Shown: piece after piece, positions 14,352 through 51,088 of the stretch
Layout: every line of letters starts with the position of its first letter
How positions within the stretch are numbered: position 1 is the stretch's first letter
Assembly (NCBI GenBank): GCA_947650365.1
Contig: OX393551.1
Coordinates: 62,551,173-62,615,172 of the forward strand
Reading direction: 5' to 3'
DNA length: 64,000 nt
Source: Chamaelirium japonicum
Lineage: Eukaryota > Streptophyta > Magnoliopsida > Liliales > Melanthiaceae
Notes under the pieces: generated by a model
The model's input: the letters and a program-made list of their open reading frames with translations, nothing else
Databases searched by the model: none
Told to the model about the DNA's origin: nothing
Made by a program: the position numbers and the translations under genes

Positions 14352-14379
14352 CCCCCCCCCCCCCCCCCCCCCCCCCCCC
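14352..14379 (+). repeat. Poly-C run of 28 next to the mannanase TATA box
   Basis: Twenty-eight consecutive cytosines, immediately followed by the TATA element at 14380. The opposite strand is poly-G and could form G-quadruplexes. Confidence 0.95.
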
Positions 14380-14389
14380 TATATAAAAG
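14380..14389 (+). promoter_or_regulatory. TATA box of the mannanase gene
   Basis: TATATAAAAG lies 51 bp upstream of the chosen start codon at 14440, giving an expected start of transcription near 14412-14420 and a very short leader. An ATG at about 14401 would lie upstream of or at the transcription start and is not used in this model. No other core element was recognised. Confidence 0.75.
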
Positions 14390-14439
14390 CCTCGCACCCA
14401 TGATGAGATTTGTTGTGAAAACCCCGGCCCTTGAGGACT

Positions 14440-14562
14440 ATGGCCACCCTAGTGAGGAGTGCAGTCACCTCCTCCCTCCCTCACCCACTTCAAACCCTCC
14501 TTTTAGTCGCAACCCTTGTGGTTTCTATACAGAAATCATATGCTCATGTCCATGGTCATGGG

Positions 14563-14606
<44 letters not shown>

Positions 14607-17600
14607 GCTCTCTCTCTCTCTCTCTCATATAGTGTTTCTATGGAATTGGCAGGACCCATGAGTTGGATGAGATGGGGAATGAGGAGTGGGGTATGGTGGG
14701 GAAGAAAGAGAACCAGTTTGTGGTGGGAGGGCAACCATTCTACGTGAATGGGTTCAACACCTACTGGCTGATGGTCCTCGCCGCCGACCAGTCCACCAGG
14801 GGGAAGGTCACCGACGTGTTCCAGCAGGCCTCGTCCGTCGGCCTCACCGTCTGCAGGACTTGGGCTTTCAACGACGGCGGATGGCGGGCTCTGCAGAAAT
14901 CTCCGTCCGTCTACGACGAGGAGGTCTTCAAGGTAATACAACCCTCCCTCGGTCTCCGGGCATGCATGTCGATCCTCGCAGATGCGTTGCTCGCACATAC
15001 CAAAAACTAGCAGACGGTTGTGATACAGTCGTCACTGTAACGGACGGTTGTGATTCAATTGTGACTTTTACCTCTCTCTCTCTCCTCTCTCCAACTGAGG
15101 TGGTAGATCCTGTACCAATATTAAAAGCTTAAAGAACAAATTACAAAATCTTTTCTTGAACTATACACCTAATTTCATAGTCCCTCAACTATAATTTTTA
15201 ACAACTTGACCCTTGAATTATACTCCGTCTGCATGTTTATCTCCTCTGTCAAATATTCAATCGTCAAACTTAAAATTTAGGATTTGACTTTGCACCCCAA
15301 ACTTTGCCTTGTATTAGACTTCTTGACCTATACACCTTATTTCATAGTCCCTCAACTATATTTTTGAACAACTTGACCCTTGAATTATACTCCGTCTGCA
15401 TGTTTATCTTCTCTGTCAAATATTCAATCGTCAAACTTAAAATTTAGGATTATTTTGACTTTGCACCCTAAACTTTGCCTTGAATTAGACTTTACCCCCC
15501 ATATTTCAATAATTAGACTTTACCTCCCAAAACTTTATTTCTTTTCCGTAGGTCACCCTTTCTCTTAGATGGTGAGCTGACGGAACAGTTAGTTTTGGGG
15601 GGTAAAGTCTAATTAATGAAATAATGGGGGGTAAAGTCTAATTCAAGGCAAAATTTGGGAGGCAAAGTCAAAATAACCCTAAAATTTATCTCAAAAATAC
15701 CCTTTTTAATATGGATAAATTTATATATGTTTTCTAAATACTAATGCTGACTAGGACGAGGGTAGTGTAGTATAAAAATTAAATTTGATGACTGAAATTT
15801 GATAGAAGGGGGGTGAACATATGCAGACATGGCATAGTTTTGGGGGACAGGTACTTGAGGGACAATGTGAAATTAGGTGCATCGTTCAGGAGGTTTGCGT
15901 GTAATTTGCCCAAGATTATATTATTAAAAGTTGTCGTAAACTACGTACCTTATTGTTGTGTTTGTATTCGTTTATTGGTAGTAATAAAATTTGCAGTAGG
16001 TTGTTTTTTTGAGTTTGGCTAATACGTGTCTCAAAATCTTTCAAGCAATGGACCCACTTCAGGCTCGAACTAATCCCTCTGGGATGTACTCCGTCCCTCT
16101 GTTACCAAATTAAAGCTTCAATTTTTTGAATAAGTCATGATTAAAGCATAACTTACTCAATAAATATTTGATCGCGATTCTATTCCGATTTTATGAAAAA
16201 TGTCACAATTTTCATATTTTAATCCTGATTTACGTGTTTTAATCTCGATAATTAATTGTGTTTTAATCTTGTCATGTACCGCTCAAAAAACTTATTGTAA
16301 CATCTATATATAAATATGTTCTAAAATTCTATCGTTTGTTTCCCGACTCTTTTCTAACATTTTTTACTTTTTTTTATTCTTTCGACTTCTCCCTTATCCG
16401 TTTTTTGTCGATTTCCAACTTGATATAACTATGCACGGACCCACTTAAAAGTTTCCCGACGCACTTCAGGGGAGGGAGGCGAGGGTCAGTTAGTAAACTT
16501 AAAGCTCGGGGGGATGTTAGTGAGATCAGTGCAATATTTGAAAAGTAATTTGGATGGTCCTTGTATTTATGCCAAACCTTAGGGGGAGGTCACTACTATT
16601 TTTTCTTTAAAATATGAGAGGTTACAAGATGAGTATGGCCATCTAAATCAATAATCCATGAGGTCCTATGGTATTTTAAGGAGTTTTTTTATATACACCC
16701 CCTAACAAATATTGATATTAAAAATAGCCACGCCTCACTTTTTAAATTCTTTAATAAACTCCTCACTTGTCTGGATTGTTTGCAAAAAGACCCCTATTTT
16801 AAAAGTGTAGGCCTTGTGTCGACCTTAATTAACAAGAAAGGAAATTTTTGGAAGCAATTAGATTCTAATCAAGCCCTACAAATTTGGATTATGGGTCTCA
16901 TGTGATAAGATGTATGAGGTTTGTTTAATGAAATATTATGATTAGTTAATGAAAGGCATAATTAGAGCCGCTAAAGTGCACTTACAGTAAGAGTGTCTGA
17001 GATTTGCTTTGATTCAGGCACTAGATTTTGTAGTGAGCGAAGCAAGGAAGTACAGGATCAGGCTCATACTATCACTTACCAACAACTGGGAAGCATATGG
17101 AGGAAAAGCGCAGTACGTGAAATGGGGGAAAGCTGCCGGCTTGAACCTAACCTCCGACGATGACTTCTTCTCTGATCCGACGATCCAAGACTACTACAAA
17201 AATCATGTCAAGGTAAGCCTCAATGTCTACTATCGTAGATTCAGCTTGTGTAGCCCTAGCCATATCATACTGATTGCGGGGTATCTCTACAGTATTTGTA
17301 CTTTTTTGCTTTTGTATGAAGTACTTGGTAGGGTGTCGGCAGATTCCTTCGCAAGGGTATGACAAATAAATCATCGGTGATCACAAAACTAACACCGGGT
17401 CATCCCCTCTGGTCGGCCTTCGCAACTTTTTCGCGAAGGATTTTTCTCATAAATCTTGTGTCCATGTCTGATTGATTTCCGATGCGCTTTTCTTCTACAT
17501 TATCTATCGTCTCTCACGATTGAGGTTAGGATTTCCTGACAAAGAATTCAAGAAACGCACTGAATATAGAATTCTTTGTACTTTTATATTAATTCTAAGA

Positions 17601-21267: not shown

Positions 21268-21284
21268 AATCACTACAAGAAAGA

Positions 21285-22060
21285 GGGTCTTTACCGACGG
21301 ACATTATTATCACCGTCGGTAATAATACACTTTTTACCGACGGTGACTATAATATTCGTCGGTATTATAACTTCAATTTTTTAAATTTTTTTTGCACATT
21401 TATTACCGACGGTCAAATATTATTCGTCGGTAAAAGTATTTATCCCGACAGTACATATATGTACCGTCGGTAAAATACTTTATACCGACGGCTACATAAA
21501 GTCCGTCGGTACAATGTCACGACGAAACTCAGGATAAAATCCAAGCCTCTGGAAAAAAATGGAACCCTGAGTTTCGTCGGCGGTTTTTACCGACGGAGGT
21601 TATATGTCCGTCGGTATAAATAATTATACCGACGGAAATTATATGGCCGTCGGTACGATACCGACGGTAAAAAAATGTCCGTCGGGAAAATTGTCCCGAC
21701 GAAACTCAGGGTAAAAACCGAGCCTCTGGAAAAAATGGAACCCTGAGTTTCGTCGGCGGTTTTTACCGACGGACGTTATATATCCGTCGGTATAAATAAT
21801 TATACCGACGGACATTATATGACCGTCGGTACCATACCGACGGTAATAAAATTTCCGTCGGGAAAATTGTCCCGACGAAACTCAGGGTAAAAACCGAGCC
21901 TCTGGAAAAAATGGAACCCTGAGTTTCGTCGTATAGGTTTACCGACGGATATGATGTTTTCGTCGGTATAACGATTATTTGTACCGACGGTTATTATGTG
22001 TCCGTCGGTATAAATATTATTTATACCGACGGACTTAAACGTTCCGTCGGTAAAAACCCT
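21285..22060. repeat. CACTA left subterminal repeats with hairpin modules
   Basis: Dense alternating CCGACGG and CCGTCGG motifs in both orientations. Three copies of a roughly 60-nt imperfect hairpin (21520-21580, 21697-21755, 21873-21931) are spaced about 177 bp apart. Each opens CGACGAAACTCAGG and closes with its complement CCTGAGTTTCGTCG. These hairpins are absent from the right end. Subterminal motifs are binding sites for the TNPA-like protein in related elements. Confidence 0.88.
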
Positions 22061-22621
22061 AACCTATTTAAACTCAGCGCGATCCCCTTCTCTGTTCGAT
22101 CTGTTTCGATCTTTCCTGCGCGCCCCGCCCCTCTCTCTCGCTCTCTCTAAATCCGTCCCCCACCCCGGTATTACTCGATCCTGCCCCGCCCCTCTCTCTC
22201 GCTCTCTCTCTAATTCCGTCCCCCACCCCGGTATTACTCGAATCGAGGGAAAGAGGAGGGGGTCCTGCTGGGTCGAGGGAGAAATCGAAAAGCTTCTGGG
22301 TGCCTCTTCCTTTCTGGTCTTGGCCGCTGACGAGGTATGGGAGACGACCCATTTCTCTCTCTCTCGCTCTCTCTCTCTCTATAATGGTTGGTAATGGGAT
22401 ATGCAGTGCTTGCTTAGATGATGATCAGACATATAATGTAGGGTTTGCTACTTTGCATATGTGGATGGATTTTCTTTTCACCCGATCGATATTTATTGGT
22501 AAATGCTCTCGTAAAATGTATTGTAGGGTTTGCTTGTTTGACAATGGTTTTTGCCCTTTAGGGTTTTCTATAATTTTTTTTTTATTTTAATGTTGGTGAG
22601 CCGGATTCTATTGGGGTCGTT

Positions 22622-23170
22622 GCAGTTTGTATAATTATGTTATTGCTACCATGAATAGATTATGTTTGGAGTTGAATTTAATGTATTGGGTGATGGTATG
22701 TTCTTCGAATGTGATATTCGGTGTTCTTCGTTCGCTGATCCACCCTCCGAGTCCACTCGAAACTCGGCCGAGTCGACTCGACTCGGCTGAGTTTCGATTC
22801 GACTCGGTCCAAAACTCGAGTTTCGATCCGACTCGGCTGATTGAGTTTCGATTCGACTCGAGTTTTGTCGGGTTTTAGACGAGTTGTTGTGTCAGTTTGT
22901 ATAATTATGTTATTGCTACCATGAATAGAATATGTTTGGAGTTGAATTTAATATATTGGGTGATGGTATGTTTTTCGAATGTGATATTCGGTGTTCTTCG
23001 TTCGCTGATCCACCCTCCGAGTCCACTCGAAACTCGGCCGAGTCGACTCGACTCGGCTGAGTTTCGATTCGACTCGGTCCAAAACTCGAGTTTCGATCCG
23101 ACTCGGCTGAGTTTCGATTCGACTCGAGTTTTGTCGGGTTTTAGCCGAGTTGTCGTGTCTACTCGACTCA
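22622..23170 (+). repeat. Tandem 270-bp duplication with GACTCG-rich palindromes
   Basis: A unit starting TTTGTATAATTATGTTATTG (22626) is repeated about 270 bp downstream (22896) with few differences. It lies upstream of the TNPD-like start and includes a run of ACTCGGCCGAGTCGACTCG-type palindromic motifs. A GACTCG-rich sequence of the same kind forms the hAT MITE at 45661-45845, so this part probably came from a related MITE before being duplicated. Confidence 0.75.
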
Positions 23171-23753
23171 TTAAGGTTTCGAGTCGAGTCGAGTTTTCGT
23201 GTTTTAATTAAAACATTGATTTTTTATATCCTATCAAAACTGAATTGAATGGGGGAATAGGGGGCAAAATGTAGTTTTTAGACTAGGGTGAGCGTCGGTT
23301 TTGTCGGTCGATTTCGGTGTCGGTTTTGTCGGTTATATTTTTTTCGGTTTACGAAAAATCAAAACCGAAACCGAAACCGAAATGGTCGGTTTTTGTCGGT
23401 TCGGTGTGATATGAGGTATGCTAAAGCCATAAATCTACTCGAGTGACAGAGAGAACCGTCAGACCCCAAGTGTTTACTTGATGAGGCTCCCTGACTTGTT
23501 GACTTACTATCGCATAACTTTGGTGCTATGCCTAGCATTCGAACTATCAGCAGTTCAAATGCTGGCCAGCAACCCTAGGTTTACTATGTGACTAGTCTAC
23601 TCATCATAATACACTCATCCATTAGGGATGTGGATGGCCTGTAGAAGTTTTGGTTCGGTGTTCCATACCCGGGAACCGAAACCGAAATTGTGCGGAGTCT
23701 TATAACATTGTTTGAAATTATATGTCAGGTGTTGTATAGCCAGATAGACGAAG

Positions 23754-26700
23754 ATGTCTTCGATCGATAAGAGTTGGATGCGTAATTCGAATCGCATGAG
23801 CCAAGAGTACAGAGAAGGAGTCAGGAATTTTCTGGATTTTACATTTGAGCGTCTTGCACCGCTTGATGGAAAAATTGTGTGTCCCTGTATAGACTGCGGA
23901 AGGGTGATTAGGAAGGTTCGAGAGGAATGTGAGGTTGATCTGGTAATGCGTGGCATTGACGTTACCTATACCCGTTGGTTCTCGCACGGTGAGGAGCTAG
24001 ATGCAGTCCCCATGGCAGCTCACGGTGAAACTTCAAACACAGTGATCGCTGATGATAATATTAATACAGACGATGACGATGACATGCAGGGTATGATACA
24101 TGATTTGCAAGGTGGAATAGGCACGGAAACACCGTCAGGTGATCAGCCCAATATCGAAGCGGACAAGTTCTACAGATTGCTTAAAGATGCCGAACAACCT
24201 CTATACCCGGGGTGTGAGAAGTTTTCAAAACTCTCTTTCACTGTAAAGCTTCTTCATTTGAAGTGCCTCAATGGTTGGAGTAATAAGTCATTTAATATGT
24301 TGGTAGAGTTGCTGAAAGAGGCTTTTCCTATGGGTGAGACAGTACCGAAATCATTCTACGAGGCGAAGAAGACAATTAAAGATCTCGGTCTGGGTTATGA
24401 GAAAATTGATGCATGCGTGAACGATTGTATGTTGTACCGGAAAGAGTACGAACATGCGCGGTCATGCCACATATGCGGAGCAACGAGATATAAAGAGACG
24501 GATGCCGAGTCTAGTACCAGTCGAAGGAAGAAAAATGTATCTGCAAAGGTTCTCCTATACTTCCCGCTCAGGGACAGGCTTCAGAGGTTGTTTATGTCAT
24601 CGAAGACTGCTGAGCACATGAGGTGGCATGCACGAGAACGTACAGATGACGGGATTATGAGACATCCGGCCGACTCTCTGACGTGGAAAGATTTTGATCA
24701 TACATATCCTGAATTCGCATGTGAAGTTCGCAACGTCAGGTTAGGGCTTGCTAGCGATGGCTTCAATCCCTTTGGGAATATGAGTGTGTCGTACAGCATT
24801 TGGCCAGTTGTCCTAGTTCCATACAATTTGCCTCCCTGGATGTGCTTAAAAAAGCCATACACAATGCTCTCCTTGCTCATTCCCGGACCCAGGTCGCCTG
24901 GTAATGATATTGACGTTTACTTGCAGCCGTTGATTGAGGAGTTGAACGAGTTATGGGAAGTTGGGGCCGATACGTATGATGCCTCGTTGCGCCAGAATTT
25001 TCGGATGCATGCGGCACTTCTATGGACCATCAACGATTTTCCTGCATATGCCAACTTATCCGGGTGGAGTACTAAAGAAAAATTGGCGTGCCCTACATGC
25101 AATAAGGAGACAGATTCATTACGATTGAAGAACGGAGGCAAGTTCTGTTATATGGGCCATCGAAGATTCCTTGTTGACGGCCATAAGTGGAGGCAGAACA
25201 AAAGAGCTTTCAACGGCAAGAAGGAACTTGCAAAGGCCCCGGAGCAGCTTTCGGGGGTAGAAGTCTTGTGCGAATTGGATCAGCTTGATGCCGTGGCACT
25301 TGGAAAAGGTAAAAAGAAGAGAACGCATGAAGATTCTACGCGTGAGCATAACTGGAAGAAGAAGAGTATTTTCTTTAAACTACCGTACTGGAGCAGCCTA
25401 CTCTTGCGGCATAACTTGGATGTCATGCATATTGAGAAAAATGTGTGTGACAATATTATAGGAACACTGCTGAATCTCGACGGTAAGACGAAGGATAATC
25501 TTAAATCTCGTCTCGATCTTAAGGAGTTGGGCATCCGAAAATCACTTCATCCCCAAGAGATTGGGGATAAGTATGTGTTGCCAGTTGCATGCTACACCAT
25601 GAGCTCACAGCAAAAGGCAGCCTTATGTGCATTCCTACGGTCTGTGAAAACGCCAGACGGTTATTCTTCGAATATCGCACGATGCGTGCAAGAGAACGGC
25701 CGGAAGTTGTCTGGATTAAAGAGCCACGATTGTCATGTTCTTATGCAGCGATTGTTATCTCTTGCTATACGTGGGAATTTAACCGAAGAGGTGTCCGGTC
25801 CGTTAATTGAGCTCAGCACTTTTTTCAGACAGTTGTGCTCGAAGGTACTTAGAGTGGACCAACTTGAACAGATGGAGAGGGATATTGCGCTCACATTGTG
25901 CAAGTTAGAGATGATATTTCCACCTTCATTCTTTGATGTCATGGTGCATTTGACCGTTCACTTGGCAAATGAGGCCAAACTCGGCGGCCCAGTTCATTAC
26001 CGGTGGATGTATTTTATCGAGAGGTAATCGTCTCGTCTCATTCGCACAATGTATTTGATCGTTCTTGATATATTCATACAAATATTTTTTTCTCAAATTA
26101 GGTACTTGCGAACATTGAAATCATATGTTCGTAATAAAAGTCGTCCGGAGGGATCAATTGCTGAAGGATACCTAGCAGAAGAATGTCTAACATTCTGCTC
26201 AAGATACCTACATGGTATAGACACGCGATTCAATCAACTTGAGCGGAACTATGACGGTGGTCCAATAGACTTCGATGGGGGTCTGTCTATATTTGCCGAA
26301 ATGGGTAGACCTGTAGGAGGAGGCAAAACCCGTCGATTGTCTGTAGATGAGATTCAACAGGCACATATGTATGTGTTGCGCCAATGTGATGAAGTGTGGC
26401 CATTCATTGAGTAAGCATTTTACGATCATTTACTCATTCTTTCAGTCCATTCATTAAGTATATGTGCTAATTATAATCTAATTCATAACCGGTAAAACAG
26501 GAAGCATAAAGCCATCATTAATAATCGGGGTATTCGAAATGCTCCCCAAATTCATGATCGTGAATTCCCATCGTGGTTCGAGAAACACGTAAGTATTCAC
26601 ATCATTACTGAATTTCATTGACATCCATTACCGAACAATAATTATGTGTTCATATCATGAATGTCGTGTGGTTATTATAGGCACAGGAGCTGCACGACAA

Positions 26701-27355
26701 CCACGATCCGCTGATGAATGAGGATCTCTGGCGCTTATCTTGTAGTCCTTTGCAAGACGCAATATCGTACGATGGTTATATCGTGAACGGTTATAGATTT
26801 CGGACGAAAGATAGTGAAAAATCACGAAGAACCCAAAATAGTGGGGTTGTCGTCAACGGTGAGCAAGAAGAATTAGAAAATATCGACTTCTACGGCGTCC
26901 TCAACGAGATTCTCGAGATTAAATTCCTTGGCCAAAATCGGATCGTATTATTCAAATGCGATTGGTATGATGTTAATAATCGCGGGACTGGTCATAATGT
27001 CGACAAATACGGTTTTATCAGCATCAACACTGCCAAGAGATTGAATACCCAATATGAAGATCCATTCATTCTTGCCTCTCAAGCGCAACAGATATTTTAT
27101 GCACCGGATAATACCTCTCCAGGTTGGCAAATTGTAGTCAGGTCACCACCCAGAGATTTTTACGACATGGGAGACAAGGATGCGGGGGTCGTCGATGATG
27201 ATTTGGATGCATACCAGAATGATGAGATAATCATTGTCGACGCAGTGCACGACGAAAATGAAGATGTCGACAATATAAACTGGACAGCGAATGCAGATCA
27301 AATAATAGAAGAGGGAAGCGATGAGAGTGACAGAGATGAGACAGAAAATGACTAG
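23754..27355 (+). CDS. CACTA TNPD-like transposase, four exons
   Basis: Exons 23754-26023, 26102-26410, 26501-26588 and 26681-27355 join in phase to 1114 codons (1113 aa) with no internal stop. Domains in order: transposase-associated N-terminus (about 5-80, with cysteines in IVCPCIDCGRV); TNP2/Transposase_21 core (about 240-580, with LACPTCNK and NLDVMHIEKNVCDNI); DUF4218 (about 610-790, with SYVRNKSRPEGSIAEGYLAEE after the first splice, of which the run is 21 residues so cited from SYVRNK only); and DUF4216 (about 950-1010, with VLFKCDWYD). The tail is acidic. The product should cut and join the element's ends together with the TNPA-like protein. Start chosen at the first in-frame ATG before the N-terminal domain. 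Confidence 0.92.
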
Positions 27356-27459
27356 ACCGTATGTAAATCAAATTGTTTCATATTTAAATCATACTGTTTC
27401 ACCGATTCATATGTAAATCATACCGTTTCATATGTAAATCATACCGTTTCACCGATTTA

Positions 27460-28580
27460 CGATCCGACCGATTCACCGATTTAGAGTCTAAGAGTTGGAA
27501 AATCATAAGTTAGCGTGTTTCGGATATGAAATAGGTTTCGATTCGATCGGATCGTCATCGGATCGGCATCCGATAATTCGAACTTGGAATTATTCCGTAT
27601 TTCGGACTTGCGAGCGGGTTCTAATTGGATATTTGACCAATTTACGCTCCGATTCACCGATTTAGAGTCTAAGTGTTGGAAAATCATAAGTTAGCGTGTT
27701 TCGGATATAAAATAGGTTTGGATTCGATCGGATCGTCATCGGCTCGGCATCCGATAATTCGAACTTAGAATTATTCCGTATTTCGGACTTACGAGCGGGT
27801 TCTAATTGGATATTTGACCAATTTACGCTCCGATTCACCGATTTAGAGTCTAAGTGTTGGAAAATCATAAGTTAGCGTGTTTCGGATGTGAAATAGGTTT
27901 GGATTCGATCCGATCGTCATCGGATCGGCATCCGGTAATTCGAAGTTGGATTTATTCCGTATTTCGGACTTGCGAGCGGGTTCTAATTGGATATTTGACC
28001 AATTTACGCTCCGATTCACCGGTTTAGAGTCTAAGTGTTGGAAAATCATAAGTTAGCGTGTTTCGGATATGAAATAGGTTTGGATTCGATCCGATCGTCA
28101 TCGGATCGGCATCCGGTAATTCGAAGTTGGAATTATTCCGTATTTCGGACTTGCGAGCGGGTTCTAATTGGATATTTGACCAATTTACGCTCCGATTCAC
28201 CGGTTTAGAGTCTAAGTGTTGGAAAATCATAAGTTAGCGTGTTTCGGATATGAAATAGGTTTGGATTCGATTCGATCGTCATCGGATCGACATCCGGTAA
28301 TTCGATGTTGGAATTATTCCGTATTTCGGACTTGCGAGCGGGTTCTAATTGGATATTTGACCAATTTACGCTCCGATTCACCGATTTAGAGTCTAAGTGT
28401 TGGAAAATCATAAGTTAGCGTGTTTCGGATATAAAATAGGTTTGGATTCGATCCGATCGTCATCGGATCGGCATCCGATAATTCGAACTTGGAATTATAT
28501 TCCGTATTTCGGACTTCCGAGCGGGTTCTAATTGGATATTTGACCACTTTACGATCCGATTAACCGATTTAGAGTCTAAC
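27460..28580 (-). repeat. 181-bp satellite array A (minus orientation)
   Basis: About six tandem 181-bp units between the TNPD-like stop and the TNPA-like start. Each unit is the reverse complement of the units at 30511-35185. Unit spacing is exactly 181 bp between successive copies (27687, 27868, 28049, 28230, 28411). The array is flanked on both sides by short CATATGTAAATCATAC-type repeats (27357-27460 and 28580-28735). Confidence 0.95.
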
Positions 28581-28736
28581 TGTTTCATATTGTTTCATAT
28601 TGCGAGCGGGTTCATATTGTTTTATATTGTTTCATATGTAAATCATACTGTTTCATATATAAATCAAACTGTTTCATATTGTTTCATATGTAAATCTTAA
28701 ATCTTACTGTTTCATATGTAAATTAAATTGTTTCAG

Positions 28737-30437
28737 ATGGCATCACGGTCATATGTTCGTAGAGGCAGAGGCAGAGGCAGGGGTGGGGTAGCTCAGAGCG
28801 CTCCGGCTGCCACCCCAGGGTCCGAGGCTGAGCCGTCCGGATCTGGTAGTGCTGTTCCTCTCTCCACACCAGCTCCTGCTGTGGTCACAGCCTCCGGAGC
28901 TTCGAGCAGTGCTCAGCACTCGGCTGCAGCGTCTACGCCCACAGGTAATGTTTAGATCTAAAGTTTTATACATGTTGTAAATACTTCTTCAGTACTGATG
29001 TATATTTTATTTGCAGGGTCGACCAGGTGTGTAGGCGACCGGGGCGTGACGACGGCCCGGCGCTTGTCGGCCTTACGCGAGCCGCTGTCCCTACAGTGGA
29101 GCGGCCATACCTTTGTGGGCGAGCACGCTTCTGACGCCGCCACGTGGGTCGGCATGATAGTACGGGAGGAGAGGAATGCCCCGATTGTGGGGTTAAGGGG
29201 GTGGAAGAACATTGATGCATCCTATAAGGAGAGGATGTATCAGCAGTTTTTGGTACGTTAGTTTCATTAAAGCATTTTAGAATAATATCGTACTTCTTTA
29301 TAATTTGATTTGATAAAATGACTTGTTTCTAAATTGATTTTACAGGAGAAATTTAAATGGGAGAACATGGAAACCGACACCCATCGGGAGGACTTGTGGA
29401 AGACGATGGGTGAGCGGTACAGGGATTACCGTCACGAGCTCTACAAGCTCTACGGTTACTTGGTCGGCCAGCCGGCAGAGGAGGTACAGGCTGCGGCCGG
29501 GACGAGAGACGCGCCACCGCTACACATTCTACAGTTTTTGGTCGCTCACTGGGCCACCCCTAGCTTTCAGGTATAATTTTAATTTTATTGATTCGTACTT
29601 GTTTTAATGTTATACTAAAAATTTGTATTGATGTTTCAAAATTTAATCGATTGACACAGGTGAAATCTGCTGTAGGCAAGCAGAATAGAAGTGCCTCGAC
29701 GACACCTGCTCCAGTGAAGGGGAGGACCTCCATGCCCCAGCTTGCCCAGCAGCTGGTAAATGATACAAACATTGTTATTATTTAAAGCTCTATACATGTT
29801 ATATTAACTCGTCTATTTATTTTATATGTCCAACAGACACAGTCCTTGGGCCACGAGCCTAATAGGATTGACCTTTTTGAGGCCTCTAGGAGGCGGCGTA
29901 TCGATGGGGCATTTCTGGACGACAGGGTTGCCTCGCAAGTGGTAAGTAATTAAATTACTGTTAATATATTCTTATACATATGCCATAAAATATCATTGAA
30001 TATCATTGGTTGTTTTTATATAGGAGAGGATGCGACTTATGGTGACCCCGTCGGGCGAGGCCGGCTCCTCCTCCAGCTCAGTATCTGTCGACTCAGCGAT
30101 GGATACTGTGCTGAGACCTGCCACGCACGGCCGTGTCCTCTGTACGGGCCTTGGAGTCACGCCCTCCTCCTACTTTGGACGAGAGGGTATGCGCTCGAGG
30201 GCACGGGACACCCAGACCGGTGCTATCACTCAGCTGCAGTCTGCGCTAGACGCGGAGCGAGAGCAGAGGCAGGCCCTCGAGCAGAGGATGGAGGCGGAGC
30301 GAGAGCAGAGGCAGGCCCTCGAGCAGAGGGTTGAGGCGGAGAAGAAGGCCCTCGATGAGGAAAGAGAAGCTCGCAGGGAACTGGAGCGTAAATTTAATGA
30401 ATTCATAAGCCGGTCTAGCGGTGGCTCATCCTCATGA
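28737..30437 (+). CDS. CACTA TNPA-like DNA-binding protein, six exons
   Basis: Exons 28737-28944, 29017-29252, 29346-29570, 29660-29755, 29837-29941 and 30024-30437 join in phase to 428 codons (427 aa) with GT-AG introns and no stop. The N-terminus is arginine/glycine-rich (RRGRGRGRGG) then Ala/Ser/Pro-rich. Residues about 90-190 match the plant En/Spm transposase family (Transposase_24/Ptta), with WKNIDASYKERMYQQF and REDLWKTMGERYRDYRHELY. The C-terminus contains a long charged coiled coil with two EREQRQALEQR repeats (about residues 355-415). By analogy with En/Spm TNPA it binds the subterminal CCGACGG motifs and dimerises. It lies exactly between the two inverted satellite arrays. Confidence 0.88.
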
Positions 30438-30510
30438 TCAGGTACTTACTAATCTTTATAATATTAGCAAAAAATATGAATCTTACTAATTTGAGTTTTG
30501 ATCATATTAT

Positions 30511-33500
30511 CACACTTATGATTTTCCAACACTTAGACTATAAATCGGTAAATCGAATCGTAAATGGTCACTCTCTCTCTCATGGTAATGATGTAGCCGG
30601 TAATGATGTAGCCTCTGTTTTTCTTTTAAATACGGAATAATTCCAAGTTCGAATTACCGGATGCCGATCCGATGACGATCGGATCGAATCCAAACCTATT
30701 TCATATCCGAAACACGCTAACTTACGATTTTCCAACACTTAGACTCTAAACCGGTGAATCGGAGCGTAAATTGGTCAAATATCCAATTAGAACCCGCTCG
30801 CAAGTCCGAAATACGGAATAAATCCAACTTCGAATTATCGGATGCCGATCCGATGACGATCGGATCGAATCCAAACCTATTTCATATCCGAAACACGCTA
30901 ACTTATGATTTTCCAACACTTAGACTCTAAATCGGTGAATCGGAGCGTAAATTGGTCAAATATCCAATTAGAACCCGCTCGCAAGTCCGAAATACGGAAT
31001 AATTCCAACTTCGAATTATCGGATGCCGAGCCGATGACGATCGGATCGAATCCAAACCTATTTTATATCCGAAACACGCTAACTTATGATTTTCCAACAC
31101 TTAGACTCTAAATCGGTGAATCGGAGCGTAAATTGGTCAAATATCCAATTAGAACCCGCTCGCAAGTCCGAAATACGGAATAATTCCAACTTCGAATTAC
31201 CGGATGCCGATCCGATGACGATCGGATCGAATCCAAACCTATTTCATATCCGAAACACGCTAACTTATGATTTTCCAACACTTAGACTCTAAATCGGTGA
31301 ATCGAAGCGTAAATTGGTCAAATATCCAATTAGAACCCGCTCGCAAGTCCGAAATACGGAATAATTCCAAGTTCGAATTATCGGATGCCGAGCCGATGAC
31401 GATCCGATCGAATCCAAACCTATTTTATATCCGAAAACTTATGATTTTCCAACACTTAGACTCTAAATCGGTGAATCGGAGCGTAAATTGGTCAAATATC
31501 CAATTAGAACCCACTCGCAAGTCCGAAATTCGGAATAATTCCAAGTTCGAATTATCGAATGCCGATCCGATGACGATCCGATCGAATCCAAACCTATTTT
31601 ATATCCGAAACACGCTAACTTATGATTTTCCGGAATAATTCCAAGTTCGAATTACCGGATGCCGATCCGATGACGATCGGATCGAATCCAAACCTATTTC
31701 ATATCCGAAACACGCTAACTTATGATTTTCCAACACTTAGACTCTAAACCGGTGAATCGGAGCGTAAATTGGTCAAATATCCAATTAGAACCCGCTCGCA
31801 AGTCCGAAATACGGAATAAATCCAACTTCGAATTATCGGATGCCGATCCGATGACGATCGGATCGAATCCAAACCTATTTCATATCCGAAACACGCTAAC
31901 TTATGATTTTCCAACACTTAGACTCTAAACCGGTGAATCGGAGCGTAAATTGGTCAAATATCCAATTAGAACCCGCTCGCAAGTCCGAAATACGGAATAA
32001 ATCCAACTTCGAATTATCGGATGCCGATCCGATGACGATCGGATCGAATCCAAACCTATTTCATATCCGAAACACGCTAACTTATGATTTTCCAACACTT
32101 AGACTCTAAATCGGTGAATCGGAGCGTAAATTGGTCAAATATCCAATTAGAACCCGCTCGCAAGTCCGAAATACGGAATAATTCCAACTTCGAATTATCG
32201 GATGCCGAGCCGATGACGATCCGATCGAATCCAAACCTATTTTATATCCGAAACACGCTAACTTATGATTTTCCAACACTTAGACTCTAAATCGGTGAAT
32301 CGGAGCGTAAATTGGTCAAATATCCAATTAGAACCCGCTCGCAAGTCCGAAATACGGAATAATTCCAACTTCGAATTACCGGATGCCGATCCGATGACGA
32401 TCGGATCGAATCCAAACCTATTTCATATCCGAAACACGCTAACTTATGATTTTCCAACACTTAGACTCTAAATCGGTGAATCGAAGCGTAAATTGGTCAA
32501 ATATCCAATTAGAACCCGCTCGCAAGTCCGAAATACGGAATAATTCCAAGTTCGAATTATCGGATGCCGAGCCGATGACGATCCGATCGAATCCAAACCT
32601 ATTTTATATCCGAAACACGCTAACTTATGATTTTCCAACACTTAGACTCTAAATCGGTGAATCGGAGCGTAAATTGGTCAAATATCCAATTAGAACCCGC
32701 TCGCAAGTCCGAAATACGGAATAATTCCAAGTTCGAATTACCGGATGCCGAGCCGATGACGATCGGATCGAATCCAAACCTATTTCATATCCGAAACACG
32801 CTAACTTATGATTTTCCAACACTTAGACTTTAAATCGGTGAATCAGAGCGTAAATTGGTCAAATATCCAATTAGAACCCGCTCGCAAGTCCGAAATACGG
32901 AATAATTCCAACTTCGAATTACCGGATGCCGATCCGATGACGATCGGATCGAATCCAAACCTATTTCATATCCGAAACACGCTAACTTATGATTTTCCAA
33001 CACTTAGACTCTAAATCGGTGAATCGGAGCGTAAATTGGTCAAATATCCAATTAGAACCCGCTCGCAAGTCCGAAATACGGAATAATTCCAAGTTCGAAT
33101 TACCGGATGCCGAGCCGATGACGATCGGATCGAATCCAAACCTATTTCATATCCGAAACACGCTAACTTATGATTTTCCAACACTTAGACTCTAAATCGG
33201 TGAATCGGAGCGTAAATTGGTCAAATATCCAATTAGAACCCGCTCGCAAGTCCGAAATACGGAATAATTCCAACTTCGAATTACCGGATGCCGAGCCGAT
33301 GACGATCGGATCGAATCCAAACCTATTTAATATCTGAAACACGCTAACTTATGATTTTCCAACACTTAGACTCTAAATCGGTGAATCGGAGCGTAAATTG
33401 GTCAAATATCCAATTAGAACCCGCTCGCAAGTCCGAAATACGGAATAATTCCAAGTTCGAATTACCGGATGCCGAGCCGATGACGATCGGATCGAATCCA

Positions 33501-35185
33501 AACCTATTTCATATCCGAAACACGCTAACTTATGATTTTCCAACACTTAGACTCTAAATCGGTGAATCGGAGCGTAAATTGGTCAAATATCCAATTAGAA
33601 CCCGCTCGCAAGTCCGAAATACGGAATAATTCCAAGTTCGAATTACCGGATGCCGAGCCGATGACGATCGGATCGAATCCAAACCTATTTCATATCCGAA
33701 ACACGCTAACTTATGATTTTCCAACACTTAGACTCTAAATCGGTGAATCGGAGCGTAAATTGGTCAAATATCCAATTAGAACCCGCTCGCAAGTCCGAAA
33801 TACGGAATAATTCCAAGTTCGAATTACCGGATGCCGAGCCGATGACGATCGGATCGAATCCAAACCTATTTCATATCCGAAACACGCTAACTTATGATTT
33901 TCCAACACTTAGACTCTAAATCGGTGAATCGGAGCGTAAATTGGTCAAATATCCAATTAGAACCCGCTCGCAAGTCCGAAATACGGAATAATTCCAAGTT
34001 CGAATTACCGGATGCCGAGCCGATGACGATCGGATCGAATCCAAACCTATTTCATATCCGAAACACGCTAACTTATGATTTTCCAACACTTAGACTCTAA
34101 ATCGGTGAATCGGAGCGTAAATTGGTCAAATATCCAATTAGAACCCGCTCGCAAGTCCGAAATACGGAATAATTCCAAGTTCGAATTACCGGATGCCGAG
34201 CCGATGACGATCGGATCGAATCCAAACCTATTTCATATCCGAAACACGCTAACTTATGATTTTCCAACACTTAGACTCTAAATCGGTGAATCGGAGCGTA
34301 AATTGGTCAAATATCCAATTAGAACCCGCTCGCAAGTCCGAAATACGGAATAATTCCAAGTTCGAATTACCGGATGCCGAGCCGATGACGATCGGATCGA
34401 ATCCAAACCTATTTCATATCCGAAACACGCTAACTTATGATTTTCCAACACTTAGACTCTAAATCGGTGAATCGGAGCGTAAATTGGTCAAATATCCAAT
34501 TAGAACCCGCTCGCAAGTCCGAAATACGGAATAATTCCAAGTTCGAATTACCGGATGCCGAGCCGATGACGATCGGATCGAATCCAAACCTATTTCATAT
34601 CCGAAACACGCTAACTTATGATTTTCCAACACTTAGACTCTAAATCGGTGAATCGGAGCGTAAATTGGTCAAATATCCAATTAGAACCCGCTCGCAAGTC
34701 CGAAATACGGAATAATTCCAACTTCGAATTACCGGATGCCGATCCGATGACGATCGGATCGAATCCAAACCTATTTCATATCCGAAACACGCTAACTTAT
34801 GATTTTCCAACACTTAGACTCTAAATCGGTGAATCGGAGCGTAAATTGGTCAAATATCCAATTAGAACCCGCTCGCAAGTCCGAAATACGAAATAATTCC
34901 AAGTTCGAATTATCGAATGCCGAGCCGATGACGATCGGATCGAATCCAAACCTATTTCATATCCGAAACACGCTAACTTATGATTTTCCAACACTTAGAC
35001 TCTAAATCGGTGAATCGGAGCGTAAATTGGTCAAATATCCAATTAGAACCCGCTCGCAAGTCCGAAATACGGAATAATTCCAAGTTCAAATTACCGGATG
35101 CCGAGCCGATGACGATCGGATCGAATCCAAACCTATTTCAAAATCGAAACACGCTAACTTATCATTTTTTAACGCTTAGACTCAG
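30511..35185 (+). repeat. 181-bp satellite array B (plus orientation)
   Basis: About 26 tandem units, mostly exactly 181 bp, starting right after the TNPA-like stop. Two units are shorter: the one from 31267 lacks about 10 bp and that from 31620 about 80 bp. The first unit (30520) is partial and interrupted. Each full unit contains arms CGATCCGAT and ATCGGATCG around a 4-nt spacer, or a one-base variant of it. Units from about 33351 to 34640 are nearly identical, pointing to recent expansion. Each unit also holds a 68-codon open frame by chance of sequence; these are not proposed as genes. Confidence 0.96.
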
Positions 35186-35229
35186 TTATAGATATAAACC
35201 ATTTTTTTAATAAATACATGTTAATTGCA

Positions 35230-35360
35230 GGAGCAGGGCGGCGTCAGGGGATCGATGAGAGCACCAGCGTTGGTGGTGGGCGGGCGTGGTTGAGATAGGG
35301 CGGCGTCAGGGGATCGATGAGAGCACCGGCGTTGGTGGCGGGCGGGGGTGGTTGAGATAG
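35230..35360 (+). repeat. Tandem duplication (about 66 bp) in CACTA 3' part
   Basis: Two near-identical copies of a GC-rich unit containing GGGCGGCGTCAGGGGATCGA. It follows array B; short AT-rich GGTAATATTTGATAAATT-type repeats come after it at about 35455-35570. Confidence 0.8.
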
Positions 35361-35636
35361 GACATGTATCATCTCTCAGTTCTGGATTGTGTAAATATTG
35401 TTTTGTAATATATGGTTATTTTTTCTTCTATCTATAATTGTCGGCCGGGAACTGTGGTAATATTTGATAATTTGCTGTAATTTTTTATCAATTTAGGTAA
35501 TATTTTATAAATTATGGTAATATTTGATAAATTGTGGTAATATTTGATAAATTGTGGTAATATATTGTGGTATTGAATCACAGGAATTAAATAACATTAT
35601 TTATGTAAATTTATTAAAAAAAAAAAGATACTTATT

Positions 35637-36165
35637 ACCGACGGAAATAAATTATTCCGTCGGTAATAATATTTTTATTTTTTTTAAATTATTAATGATT
35701 TGCCGACGGCATATAATATCCGTCGGTAATATATATAGTATTACCGACGGGTAATATATATATCCGTCGGTAATATATATAGTATTACCGACGGTGATAT
35801 TAATTTGGTCGGTAATATATATATTATTACCGACGGGTAATATATATATGTGTCGGTAATATATATAGTATTACCGACAGTATAAACTATACTCGTCGGT
35901 AAAATGTTTATATATTACCGACGGATTCTTATAGTTCGTCGGCAATACTATATTATATTAGTTTTAAATTGATTAAATATTACCGACGGCGTTCTAATTA
36001 CCGTCGGTATTAATTATTAATACCGACGGTAATATTTGGTCCGTCGTATTGTTTTCCCCGACGCCTTTTTTCCCGACAGCCAGCGACGGAAATATCTTCC
36101 GTCGCTATATAATATTACCGACGAAATTTTAATATTACCGACGGATATTGTCCGTCGGTAATAAC
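35637..36165. repeat. CACTA right subterminal repeats
   Basis: Many CCGACGG/CCGTCGG motifs in both orientations separated by AT-rich TATATATA-type spacers. They match the motif of the left end but lack its hairpin modules. Confidence 0.9.
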
Positions 36166-36184
36166 TGTTTTTTTTGTAGTGAAT

Positions 36185-36991: not shown

Positions 36992-39159
36992 TCTAAAGCA
37001 AAGAAGGAATATGGACCCGGAGCCTCCTCCTTTCTCTCTCCCATCCCAACATCCGGCCTCGGTGGTGCACGGCTTGGATCGCGGTGGTGATCGCGAATTT
37101 CGACCCTCCTATTATTCGGCTGCGACTGCCCATAGACCCTCTTCCTGGGAGGGGAGGTTTGATGCCTCTCATGCGTCGCGGATGTCCTTGGTCGATGGCG
37201 TGGTGGTTTTGGACCCAGAGCGGCTGCAGGCGACGTAGGCGAAGTGGCGAATGGCCTTGATGGGCAAGTTCTTAGGGTCTAAGCTTCAGCTCGATACCTT
37301 GCGCACGCGGGTGGCGCAGAGGTGGCCGTGTGCGGGTAGAGTCCAGGTGATGGATCTCCCCAATGGTTTCTTTAGCTATCGGTTTGAACTCAAAGAAGAT
37401 CTGCTCGATGTGTGGGAAGGAAGCCCATGGATTTTTGAGGGTCGGGTGCTCGCTCTCAAGCGCTGGTCTTCGTTTTTTTAACCTCTCCATGAGAGCATAG
37501 ATCTGGCGCCGGTGTGGGTGCGCCAACTTGGTCTGTTGGTGGATTGTCATGATGAGCAATTGGTGAAGGAGATAGCGGCTGTTGCGGGGCGTCCAATTCG
37601 GGTCGATCTGAATTCTTTATTCGAAAACAAAGGGCTGTATGTTCGTGTGTGTTGAAGTTGATCTAACGAAGAGCCTCCGACCAGGGACCAACGTTGCAAT
37701 GTCCGATTTGAAGGTGCGTTTTTATCAACCTTTTGTCTACAAAAATCTTCCACGGATTTGTTTTGGGTGTGGGCGAGTAGGCCATCTACAGAACCAGTGT
37801 TCGTCACATCCACCTTTCAGTGGTGGCGGTGTTGAGGTGCCGCGGACGAGTGGCGAGAAGGCGGACTCTTCGGTGGAGTCTCCGGTTCAGGCACCATCGA
37901 CACCGGGGGTTGAGCCCGTGGCGCAGTCAACCTTTGGGCCTTGGATGGTTGTGCCGCGGAGACAGGGGAGACGATCAGCGGTGCATGATCGCCATGGCGG
38001 AGGAGGAGAAACGGCTCGGGTTCCTCAGGGTTTCAGCTTTGCAATGCGTCATACCCTAGCGTGGGATCCAGATCGAAGGGTGGAGGTTGATGCGAGGCGA
38101 CCGAGGTGGCGACGTAATGATGGCCCGTTGAAGGCACCGATGGAGTTGCACCAATCAGGTTCGAGGTTTCAGTCATTGGTGGGGCTGCCTGATGAGTTTG
38201 GGGGGGGGGGGAGTTCCAATGCATGATGACGTCGAGGACAAGACCCCACTTCGGGCGGCAGATGCATGCATGAAGGAATCCAGTGGGGTGGGTGTCATCT
38301 CTGGTGGAGGCCAGAGTGTGGTGGACCCCAGACTGACTCCTTCTCGGGGAGTGAGTGAGACCTCGAATCAGTCGATGGGAGGCTCGGCGGACCCGAGTCA
38401 TGGTAGGCCTGGTCCCCCTGGACTTTCAGCTAAATCGCTACCGTTCCATTCTCGTGGGCCTAGTGGGCCTAGTGGCGGTGCCCATGGTAGGGGACCGCGT
38501 GTTTTGCTTGGGGCGGACGATCCACCGACGTCACCGGTTCAACCACCCGGGTTTGAACAGGTGGAAGGTTTAGGGGCTGGCGGGTCAATGGGGCTTCACG
38601 AGGATGCCGTGGACCTAGTTAATCGACTGTTAGCCGCTATAGATAAGGTTCCGTCGGAGGAAGAGATGAGTGATGGCGAGTCTGCCGCCGGTGAGAGGCT
38701 TGAGGATGATGGCGAGGCGGGAGTATCGGACTTGGACCCGGGTGGGCGGTGCATCAGGCCTTGAAGGGTCATCTCCTGAAGAAACCGGGCAAAGGGGGTC
38801 GGCTCCCTGCCTCCTTGCTCTCTGCCCTTCCTCATTGAGGTTCTTTTGTGATTTTCTACGACCTAGGGAGGGCGGAGGTTGGGGGTCATACAGTGGGGAG
38901 GGTCTGCTATGGTCTGGCATTTTAGCTGGTCTGTTGGTTGTGCACCAGATATGCTTGGGTCAATTCCTCCTACATTGGTGATCTGCGATGGCCGATATGT
39001 TTTGGGATCACTGCTCGAGTAAGTTGGGAAGTTGGGTCCGCGTGCAGATTATGTGGCTTGCGCTATGAGTTGATGTGATCACCTATGTAATACCTGGTCT
39101 TATGTTTGGAGGCCTTTTGGTCATATGGTTATGACCACCTCTGATCTACCAAAAAAAAT
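36992..39159 (+). mobile_element. Internally deleted plant LINE (L1-type)
   Basis: Flanked by the 14-bp duplication ATCAGCACCAAATA (36978-36991 and 39160-39173), with a terminal A-run at 39151-39158. It retains an ORF1 region, a trace of the ORF2 start near 38830-38870 (a decayed WNCRGLG-type segment), and then runs straight into 3' sequence. The endonuclease and reverse transcriptase are gone. With its duplication and tail it inserted as a unit, so the deletion either preceded insertion or came later. It lies only about 60 bp beyond the S6 kinase stop codon, in the opposite direction. Confidence 0.85.
37012..38764 (+). pseudogene. LINE ORF1 (DUF4283 and CCHC zinc knuckle), broken
   Basis: Starts MDPEPPPFSLPSQH. 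A DUF4283-like RNA-binding region covers about 37240-37640 (VMDLPNGFFSYRFELKEDLL, PWIFEGRVLALKRW, APVWVRQLGLL). The zinc knuckle CFGCGRVGHLQNQC lies at about 37760-37800, followed by a low-complexity Pro/Gly/Ser tail. There is a TAG near 37236, shifts near 37480 and 37650, and another at the G-run around 38200. It therefore does not read through. In intact relatives the product packages the LINE RNA. Confidence 0.8.
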
Positions 39160-39233: not shown

Positions 39234-42065
39234 TCAGCCTAGGGGACTAGGCTTTTGAAGAATAGTATGAGGCCTCACATAAGAAAATCCTGTGAAGACG
39301 CAGTCACCGGCGACTGGGCTGGCAACCGGAGAATCCAACAGCGGCATGCTGGTCCAACGCTCCTCGAAGTTGGCGATGCAGTTCTTGCCCGAAACCTTGG
39401 GCCGGAAGCTTGGCTGGATCTCGCGAGCATCCAGTTTCCTCCAATTGATTGGTTTGAACCACTTGTGGTTCTTTATCTCGTCGTTGCCCCCAGGTCCACC
39501 GCCGAGGCGCTTGCTTGATTCTTTCTGCAACAACTGCAAGAAAAAGAGAATTTTTTTTTATCAATGAATCCATATACATTCGATTAAGTGGAAGGTTAAA
39601 AAAAAAAACAACAGCTTGAGGGTAAGGCAATAAGTGAAGTTGATTTACCCCTTTCAGCAGAGAATGAGCTTCACTGGATAGATATGCCGGAAGCTTTATC
39701 TTATCTTTTACTATTTTCTGCTGAATTTTCTGTCGATTACCACTAACAAACGGCGGCTGCATGCGTAATTAAACACAATTAGGTGAAAACATCTCACACG
39801 ATTCTGATTTCTTAAATAACGCTGATATGTTGCACACTTAGTACCACAAATCTCCAAGACTACTCTAATACACTGTAAAAAAAAAAAATGAAGTGATGGA
39901 CACCAATACTTCCCGAAGTCCGGGAGCATTTCCATCTACATAGACTATCCAAACCTAGAAATTTTTCAGCACGTCCTGCGTACCATACAAGTATACAACC
40001 GCGAGGCCCACTGCCCCCAGATCCTATCATCACGCTCTGAGTGCCGGGGGGCTACAACCCCCATCAATGCTGAGGCCCGCTACCCCATGTCTCTTGAATC
40101 GTAGTGGGCTCCACGGTTGTATGGTACGCAGGATGTGCTGAAAATTTTCCCCTCTGACAGGTGTCGTGCACAGAGAAGAAACAAACCTTCCCAGTGAGCA
40201 TTTCAAACATAAGGATTCCGACACTCCACCAATCAGCAGCCTTATCATGGCCTTTCCCAAGAACAATTTCTGGTGCCATGTACTCTAGCGTTCCGCACAT
40301 AGAGTTAGATCTAGCATTCTCTTCAAAATGCTTCGCCAGACCAAAATCAGTCAGCATGGCCTAGTCGAGAAATGAGAAATATGTCAGATTAGATGCTAGC
40401 AAATAAGTAAGGAGGGCACGGAATAAGAAAAGGCACGTGTCTCACGTGGCCGTCCGCATCCAGAAGGATGTTTTCAGGTTTAAGGTCCCTGTGCATTATT
40501 CCATTTGCATGAAGGTGAGAAACAGCTGACACTATTTCAGCAGTGTATAGGCGTGCCAGATCCTCTCTGATACAGATAAGAGTTAGCTTCTAAATAAAAC
40601 ATGGATTCGAAGGATAACTAGACAATAGCAAATCAAGACTAATCACCTGAATAAACCATGTCGATAAAGCTGAAAAAATAGGTGTCCCCCATTCACAAAA
40701 TCCAGTACAAGGTATAAGCGGTATTTTGTCTGCGTGATAAAATATAATTCAATATGTTAGGCCTAGAAAATCCAAATGAAATGATATCATAATAAAATAT
40801 CTGTTTGAGCATCCCAATATTTTCACAAGATGGGTTAAAATTTTATGAGTTCCAAAGTAACAACCATGATTGTATCATCAAGGATTCGTCATAGGATAAA
40901 CTTGATAGGTTTATAGAAAAGGTATGCACAAGGTTTTACATGAAACTTTGATATAGCTAGTAAGGGTGCCTTAAAAAATGCCACCCGATGGCATATGATT
41001 AAGGAATACAATGACGCCAGTAAAGTGACATACCCTGACATTTCATGGATGTTGGAGAAGAACAAAGACAAAAGAATTGGTAATATATCGATGCTTAAAT
41101 AAACAAAGTCGGCATCACGATAGGCGTTCAGATTATCTATGTGGTGAGGCATAAGATATAAGCTGCATGTAATAAAAAAAGGTATGTTTTGATGTTATCT
41201 AAACTAGCAACATGTAGAGTCGATTGATTAGCAAAAACAAGGAGCCAGGTCAGCAGTTATATTAGTCTTTGCATACAACGCTTTTGGTGAAAATATACAT
41301 ATGAAAAATATGGCTCTGCATTCAAAGATAAGCATAAAATTGCTCCACTGAACTACTTTTAAAGCAAATGTAGGAAGAAATGGTAAGATGAAGACCCCGT
41401 ACCTGAAAAGAGTATCTGAGCTGAACAATGAATGGGTGATCAACTTGGGTCAATATATCTCTCTCAGCTTTCATGTATTCAGCATGATTCTTTTCCATAA
41501 TCTTGTCCTTTCTCATGACTTTCATTGCATATATTTCAGAAGTGCTTTTCTTTTTCACTTGAAAGACTTTACCAAATGCCCCTTGCCCGACGACCTTCAT
41601 GACTTCAAAGTCATCAAGTCCCACACCCTCAGTCTTCGCAGATTTAGTGTCATGGTCTTCAGTACCACAGATCGGTTGCTCATCTTGCTCAACTTCTATT
41701 TCTCCAGAGGCACATTCTACGATTTCCAATGAGCTCTCAGTCTCATGTAACGTTAGCTTGCTGAGCTGAAAGGATGGACTAACACAAGTTGTAGGCCCCA
41801 CCAGGGAATGAGATCGATTGTGAACAACCACTGGGTCATCATAAACCTTCTCATTCGGACACAGCGCAGGTAGAAAATTCTCAGAAGTCAAGACATTTAC
41901 TTCAATTGAGGCTTGAACTGGGAAGGGACCAAATACATCAGAAAAATCAAACTCCATGTGCTCGGAGGGAACAACATCAGCGGGGCCCAAGGGAAGAAGT
42001 AACTGTCTGTTGAAGGACTTGTGACCATGTGTTTTGGTCATGGTATTACTCTCAGAGAAAACCAT
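39234..42065 (-). CDS. S6K: Ribosomal protein S6 kinase (AGC Ser/Thr kinase), six exons
   Basis: Cytosolic and nuclear kinase that acts below TOR and PDK1 to promote translation. Exons on the minus strand: 42065-41403, 40729-40647, 40566-40446, 40360-40187, 39756-39649, 39533-39234; all GT-AG and in phase, 482 aa. The N-terminus carries the plant S6K segment [13 protein letters not shown] (about 38-50), where RAPTOR interaction is expected. Kinase landmarks: [11 protein letters not shown] glycine loop, [10 protein letters not shown] lysine, [21 protein letters not shown], activation-loop [14 protein letters not shown] with the PDK1-site serine. The C-terminal AGC extension ends with hydrophobic motif FTGFSYVRP, where serine takes the place of the usual TOR-site threonine. 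Length fits Arabidopsis S6Ks (about 465-471). Start MVFSESN chosen by family similarity. Looks functional. Confidence 0.94.
39956..40150. mobile_element. Fold-back MITE in S6 kinase intron 4
   Basis: Inverted repeats of about 45-50 bp, beginning with TTTTTCAGCACGTCCTGCGT at the left (39962) and a near-exact complement at about 40110-40150. Both arms continue with ACCATACAA and CCACT blocks. It lies wholly within the intron between exons 4 and 5. No clear target duplication was found, so family and exact ends are open. Confidence 0.72.
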
Positions 42066-42095
42066 TTCGCAGAACCCAAAGCACAATGCAATCTA

Positions 42096-50484: not shown

Positions 50485-51088
50485 TGGATGCAAAAAATTA
50501 TATCGGACCGGATCAGAGCCGCATGGGCTAGTACAATGGCCCAAGTGAATAAGCTCGTCCAGGCTCATGGACCCACTCTGCAAGGCCTGCAATTCAAGCC
50601 CTCCCCCTTATTGGGCCCGCACAACGGCCCAATAAGGGCCCAGCAAGGAGGCCCAGGACCAATGCAACATCATCACCGCCACATAATCACTGCCATATTG
50701 GGCACTTGCCTATGCTATAAAAGGACCCCCAAGGCATTCAGAAAAAGGGTTGGTCATTCAATCAGAGGAAGAGAGGATCTCAAAGCCAGAGCTAGAGCTT
50801 ATTTCTCTCCTCCTTGTTCTTTTTTTGTTGCTCCGTGCAACCCCCACTGTAAGAAGCTTCTCTCGGCTTGTCGAGAGAACGCTCCCCCACCTTTATATTC
50901 ATAATAGTGGAAACCAGGTGGCACCTCTTGCCCGGAGACGTAGGTCGTAAGATCGAACTTTGACAACACTCCACTTGTCTTATTTCTCTTTATCTACTCT
51001 TTAATCTCTAACTCTACAAACCATCCACATTCAATCAAGGCTGTGGGGCGGGGTTCCCGATCAAGGTGGCATGGTAATTTTCCCCATA
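50485..51088 (+). repeat. 5' LTR of the gag-only element
   Basis: About 604 bp, matching 57866-58471. The left boundary is approximate because the first 15-20 bases differ between the copies. Confidence 0.8.

Follow-up and report, generated by a model that had tools for sequence, protein, structure and literature searches.

Opposed 181-bp satellite arrays around the TNPA-like gene of a CACTA transposon in Chamaelirium japonicum: probable satellite expansion in two non-coding spacers

A CACTA transposon in the genome of Chamaelirium japonicum carries two arrays of one 181-bp satellite unit, in opposite orientation, on either side of its TNPA-like gene. This arrangement raises the question whether the element uses a long RNA hairpin to regulate itself, or whether a satellite has simply grown inside it. 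The element lies in a window of 64,000 nucleotides (GenBank assembly GCA_947650365.1, contig OX393551.1, positions 62,551,173 to 62,615,172 of the forward strand), the whole stretch of DNA that was analysed, within which all positions given here are counted; judged by its elements, the window is plant DNA with several transposons. We consider it probable that the satellite expanded in two non-coding spacers of the element and that the capacity to form a hairpin is a by-product.

The CACTA element, its genes and its satellite arrays

The element comprises 14,911 bp on the plus strand (21271-36181). Its left end reads CACTACAAGAAAG and its right end, on the other strand, CACTACAAAAAAA, with 11 of 13 letters alike. 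It displays the hallmarks of the CACTA (En/Spm) group, namely CACTA terminal inverted repeats within a 3-bp target duplication (AAT directly outside both ends), subterminal ACCGACGG/CCGTCGGT repeats, direct and inverted, at both ends, and a tnp2-type transposase (Transposase_21). The left subterminal repeats, with the motif (T)ACCGACGG in both orientations, occupy 21271-22060, and the right ones, together with the terminal inverted repeat, 35611-36181; the subterminal frequencies of CCGACG and CCGTCG were matched by none of 200 shuffles. The left subterminal region also holds a 176-bp direct repeat of about three copies (21482-22010), and the 5' non-coding part of the element a 270-bp direct duplication (96.7%) with GAGTCGACTC palindromes (22616-23159). 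Because both ends, the target duplication and two open genes are present, the element is read as apparently complete.

The TNPD transposase gene (23754-27355, plus strand) consists of four coding exons, open throughout from start to stop, which join via GT-AG into a single open frame and encode the domains Transposase_21 (E = 1.5e-101), DUF4218, Transpos_assoc and DUF4216. When one 755-amino-acid exon was used as a query for relatives, two pattern matches each were obtained in IMG/VR and GTDB and tblastn confirmed none of them, as expected for a plant element. The TNPA-like gene follows on the same strand (28737-30441), with six coding exons that join to encode 427 amino acids; its product matches PF03004, Transposase_24 (E = 3.2e-15), which is Pfam's plant Ptta/En/Spm family.

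Array A (27468-28587, plus strand) lies between the TNPD stop codon and an acceptor-like TTGTTTCAG that immediately precedes the TNPA-like ATG at 28737. By unit profile it contains six full units (27468-28553) and a weak, degenerate 32-nt piece (28556-28587, E = 0.065), and a possible unit fragment of the same orientation is found in its right flank (28600-28619; blastn, 90% over 20 nt, E = 0.065). Array B (30628-35184, minus strand; element positions 9358-13914 of 14911) contains 26 units, four of them partial (B01, B06, B07 and B26) and eight identical, and is preceded by a detached degenerate piece in its own orientation (30513-30555, profile E = 1.6e-5). Tandem Repeats Finder likewise returned a period of 181 at 27468-28584 (6.2 copies, 96% matches), 30628-31631 (5.6 copies) and 31631-35183 (19.6 copies). 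The loop between the arrays is 1.93 kb long when measured up to the detached piece, or 2.04 kb when the first B unit is taken as its limit. The initial annotation, which had described a CACTA element with two opposed arrays of one 181-bp unit around a TNPA-like gene in a loop of about 1.9 kb, was right within tens of bases in its unit counts, coordinates and strands; the terminal repeats, AAT duplication and Transposase_21 domain bear out the class of the element, as the Pfam family does the name of the loop gene.

Elsewhere in the 64 kb the unit profile detected no further copy (E up to 10). The presence of the identical unit on both sides of the TNPA-like gene is far beyond chance. Opposite orientation of two same-unit arrays, by comparison, has a prior of about one half and is not improbable in itself, so function should not be inferred from orientation alone. 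The unit, which holds a palindrome with a 9-bp arm and a 4-nt gap, gave no sign of being a known RNA, Rfam having returned nothing for the window at its gathering scores; in the open-access literature none of six pieces (20-23 nt, both orientations) had a match, and one 27-nt piece tried against each of IMG/VR and GTDB gave 0 exact matches. As a coding repeat it is ruled out, 181 not being a multiple of three and the longest open stretches reaching 69 codons in A and 124 in B; both arrays are non-coding. Derivation from another part of the window was also considered and rejected: besides the piece at 28600-28619, blastn gave only short matches at E of at least 2.8. A 21-bp minisatellite, TTTCATATGTAAATCATAC, borders array A on both sides (27360-27457 and 28630-28735, both plus strand, by repeat scan), its right-hand end running into the acceptor-like TTTCAG ahead of the TNPA-like ATG; with three mismatches allowed, the scan gave seven matches, all beside array A and no others in the window.

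Array B appears to lie in an intron. A putative 3' untranslated-region intron (30442-35230, plus strand), deduced from a donor signal CAG/GTACTT at 30441/30442, four nucleotides after the TNPA-like stop codon, and an acceptor signal TTGCAG/GAG at 35230/35231, would enclose it, leaving 71 bp between the donor and the first unit piece and 46 bp between the last unit and the acceptor. The remaining eight introns joined in the element measure 72-93 bp each. Since its flanks alone give a near-ordinary intron size, array B looks like an expansion within the ordinary last intron of the TNPA-like gene. If one pre-mRNA serves both genes, as in En/Spm, both arrays would be intronic in the TNPA-like message, and each full pre-mRNA would hold both arms of the hairpin.

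Orientation and history of the arrays

That the arrays truly share one orientation and were turned by the assembly seems highly improbable. Eight identical units do make array B a hard assembly case, and its copy number is for this reason less secure. The degenerate edge pieces, however, keep the orientation of their own array and link it to unique flanks (28556-28587 and 28600-28619 on the plus strand, 30513-30555 on the minus strand), although the two on the side of array A match the unit weakly (E = 0.065 each). Unit B26, the last of its array, is divergent (nine differences) and oriented as the rest of array B, while B01 is not divergent (three differences). No two A units are identical, the nearest pairs being 1.7% apart; neither array contains a strand switch, and the loop gene stands in the expected orientation. 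A mis-turned array would require false joins on both sides, and a simple flip during assembly is unlikely given that the orientation of each array continues into its degenerate edge pieces.

The 32 units of both arrays offer eight informative sites. Between A and B we found no fixed differences and seven shared polymorphisms; variation was confined to A at seven sites and to B at 15, and the between-minus-within distance was -0.00001, a value reached by 2122 of 5000 label shuffles. By their variants, the two arrays are one pool, which would mean either that one array gave rise to the other at a time that is recent by the measure of unit divergence, or that conversion keeps them alike. Within array B, seven consecutive units (B17-B23) are identical to one another and to B15, and among B01-B12 units seven apart differ by 0.7% (five pairs) versus 1.8-4.4% at lags 1-6 and 8-11. 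The lag-7 similarity and the identical block point to local amplification in array B; the variant patterns reveal this amplification, not whether unequal exchange or slippage was at work. Array A was also compared with present B blocks as a plain inverted copy, which was not seen: the A units were not colinear with B, 404 of 720 possible orders of their variants doing as well when inverted and 709 of 720 in the other direction.

Predicted hairpin and possible roles

A double-strand capacity of about 1 kb in the pre-mRNA is real in prediction. The inverted-pair search returned 88 pairs, and among the 25 longest 14 have arms of 1,029-1,031 nt at 97%. In an ungapped scan of the 1,031-nt A arm against B, 14 of 15 placements matched at 96.8-97.5% and one at 95.5%, and the longest perfect run in A-B pairing was 193 nt. 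For an RNA of 27468-31744, which spans array A, the loop and the 1,117 nt of B closest to it, the predicted folding energy was -2575 kcal/mol and the number of A-B pairs 999, compared with -1483 kcal/mol and 69 A-B pairs when its B part was turned round. The long stem proposed by the initial annotation for any transcript crossing both arrays is thus reproduced by the folding model, and the ungapped scan gives it a 1,031-nt arm at about 97%.

The same annotation had likened the arrangement to Mu killer, an inverted duplication that silences its own transposon family. Here, a read-through RNA would fold through A and B and be diced into small RNAs that silence the family, an account that we regard as unlikely. 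It agrees with the predicted preference for A-B pairing along the 1,031-nt stem at about 97%, with the finding that, of 617 distinct 21-mers in the stretch 27441-28620 around array A, 312 are matched exactly by B in antisense, and with the order TNPD-then-TNPA on one strand, which would permit a single pre-mRNA as in En/Spm (per the accessible text of PMC2613891). Elsewhere in the window, however, array 24-mers occur 0 times and array 21-mers three times, so that neither the ends nor the exons of the element would be matched by small RNAs derived from the stem; such RNAs could target the arrays, and thereby introns, without any direct action on ends or exons. The Mu killer hairpin, in contrast, is reported to match the terminal repeat and mudrA (PMC8224964, in its accessible part), whereas the inverted arms of the present element match neither its ends nor its genes, and the likeness in silencing is therefore not supported.

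CpG content bears on the same question. The observed/expected ratio was 2.1 in the arrays, 2.2 and 3.3 in the subterminal repeats, 1.02 in TNPD and 0.86 in the TNPA-like gene; other stretches ranged from 0.55 to 0.83 (copia stretch 0.55, gypsy-side stretch 0.73) and the eight other tandem arrays of the window from 0.50 to 1.48. In these CpG-rich arrays, CpG transitions among units are not clearly in excess, their ratio being 0.9 by pairs and 1.6 by columns (6 of 39 CpG-capable columns versus 14 of 143 others). As controls, a 92%-identical repeat pair had transitions at 8 of 48 sites (ratio 3.1) and the 22623/22893 duplication at 1 of 48 (2.3), while none occurred in the copia long terminal repeat (LTR) pair (0 of 50 sites) or the 15153/15320 duplication (0 of 4). 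The CpG transitions do not suggest long-standing methylation of the arrays; the numbers are small, and silencing is still compatible with them.

Other roles can be proposed for paired or repeated arrays. Pairing of the arrays in the pre-mRNA could cause the TNPA-like block to be skipped or back-spliced into circular RNA and so set the TNPD:TNPA ratio. Such a splicing switch fits the placement of the arrays, with the acceptor-like sequence abutting the ATG and the donor-like CAG/GTACTT after the stop, and, by analogy, the effect reported in Caenorhabditis elegans, where complementary matches in flanking introns promote back-splicing and skipping (PMC8330042, accessible part); En/Spm moreover makes tnpA and tnpD through alternative splicing (PMC2613891, accessible part). 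We nevertheless find it quite unlikely, as En/Spm does this with no such arrays mentioned in the accessible text of that source, and in our element both the leader exon upstream and the intron in the 3' untranslated region are deduced from signals alone. The arrays might instead be binding platforms for an element protein, like the targets of the anti-silencing protein VANC or the sites of TNPA. In VANDAL elements the VANC targets are tandem repeats situated outside the coding parts, and TnpA has been linked with Spm demethylation (both from the accessible part of PMC10398659); the high CpG ratio common to arrays and subterminal repeats and the palindrome of the unit are in line with this idea, which we hold to be improbable. 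The unit lacks the subterminal motif CCGACGG, and no 5-mer or 6-mer is raised jointly in the unit and both subterminal regions (200 shuffles). The search for a shared motif yielded nothing beyond CCGA, which is raised in the unit (4 of 200 shuffles) and in both subterminal regions (0 of 200 each), and a single 4-mer is weak evidence; a binding platform has little support in the sequences compared. A rather unlikely generalization of the RNA-based roles is a selected, self-regulating cassette, in which the inverted arrays loop out the TNPA-like block and limit the element by lowering TNPA, its exons being skipped or circularized, or by making small RNAs.

Satellite expansion with the hairpin as a by-product is the explanation that we favour. 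The 181-bp satellite would have settled and expanded twice in non-coding spacers of the element. One array may have been seeded from the other, or both may have been held alike by conversion; the second most likely arose inverted through template switching during gap repair, and array B would have grown through local amplification, e.g. by unequal exchange or slippage. The element presumably tolerates the arrays, which would be spliced out or lie outside coding parts, since its exons and splice signals are intact. Small RNAs may arise from the hairpin, with the arrays as their sole targets. Three points weigh against this explanation. The arrays are known from one copy of the element, and an old family trait would favour function; both arrays flank exactly the TNPA-like exons, which drift leaves unexplained; and the A units are colinear with no B block, though only eight informative sites bear on this.

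If the arrangement proves to be kept across the family, the element would be a natural DNA transposon with a kilobase hairpin around its own regulator and a direct system in which to ask whether elements limit themselves through RNA structure. Even as a by-product, it presents a case of satellite growth within the introns of a transposon that appears complete, and an array-bearing transposon could spread satellite arrays around the genome.

Surroundings of the element and comparison with known systems

The window holds several other repeats. A young copia element on the minus strand (1250-7534) has two 482-bp LTRs that are 99.4% identical and a 1,346-amino-acid open polyprotein, and at 10579-11725 about 17 tandem copies of a 68-bp unit form an array whose CpG ratio is raised (1.48). 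Adjoining the CACTA element, a G+C-rich stretch (37639-38764) with an open reading frame (ORF) for a zinc knuckle (zf-CCHC_4) is probably another retroelement piece, and a minus-strand ORF at 41322-42086, which holds the start of a protein kinase domain, is perhaps a host-gene exon. The region 50497-58469 is bounded by a 590-bp repeat pair (50497-51086 and 57881-58469, 92% identical) whose ends are not TG...CA at the aligned borders; the stretch between the copies is packed with tandem arrays of periods 107, 67, 118, 189 and 103, and the second copy is followed by a weak gag match (below the Pfam cut-off) and by RNase H and integrase domains. This region may represent a non-autonomous LTR element with a gypsy element next to it.

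With maize En/Spm and soybean Tgmt* the present element shares CACTA ends, a 3-bp duplication, subterminal repeats, a tnp2 transposase and a second product; it differs from both in its arrays, none such being mentioned in the accessible text on them, and in that alternative splicing is demonstrated there and deduced here (PMC2613891). Like maize Mu killer, it combines inverted sequence of a DNA transposon with a long hairpin transcript, shown there and predicted here; Mu killer is a rearranged derivative, whereas here the element appears complete and the arms are non-coding satellite (PMC8224964, accessible part). Non-coding tandem repeats within a DNA transposon are also found in VANDAL elements with VANC targets, where they expand and contract; those targets are short motifs with binding shown, unlike our 181-bp unit (PMC10398659, accessible part).

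The closest counterpart is the Chenopodium quinoa CACTA element Jozin, which carries 32.5 copies of a 171-bp satellite at positions 10098-15648 of 16523 (PMC8978399, from its accessible part, as are the statements on Jozin that follow). Both are Transposase_21 CACTA elements in which tens of satellite copies separate the coding part from the 3' end, the place taken here by array B. The two satellites did not align as one family, their local scores of 15 and 13 comparing with a 95% point of 22 among shuffles (n = 200; 169 of the 171 letters of the Jozin monomer were used). Seeding of Chenopodium satellites by fragments of tnp2 has also been reported (PMC7320549, accessible part). Jozin is described with one array, none inverted around ORF2, whereas here a second, inverted array completes the enclosure of the TNPA-like gene. 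The remark of the initial annotation that it knew of no described element with such a layout holds in part: single satellite arrays in CACTA elements are published, whereas among the open-access literature matches listed none had a second, opposite array around the second gene of a CACTA element. Given satellite-bearing CACTA elements such as Jozin, array B is by analogy the kind of thing to be expected; what lacks a counterpart among the open-access matches listed is an additional array, opposite in orientation, and the placement of the pair around the second gene.

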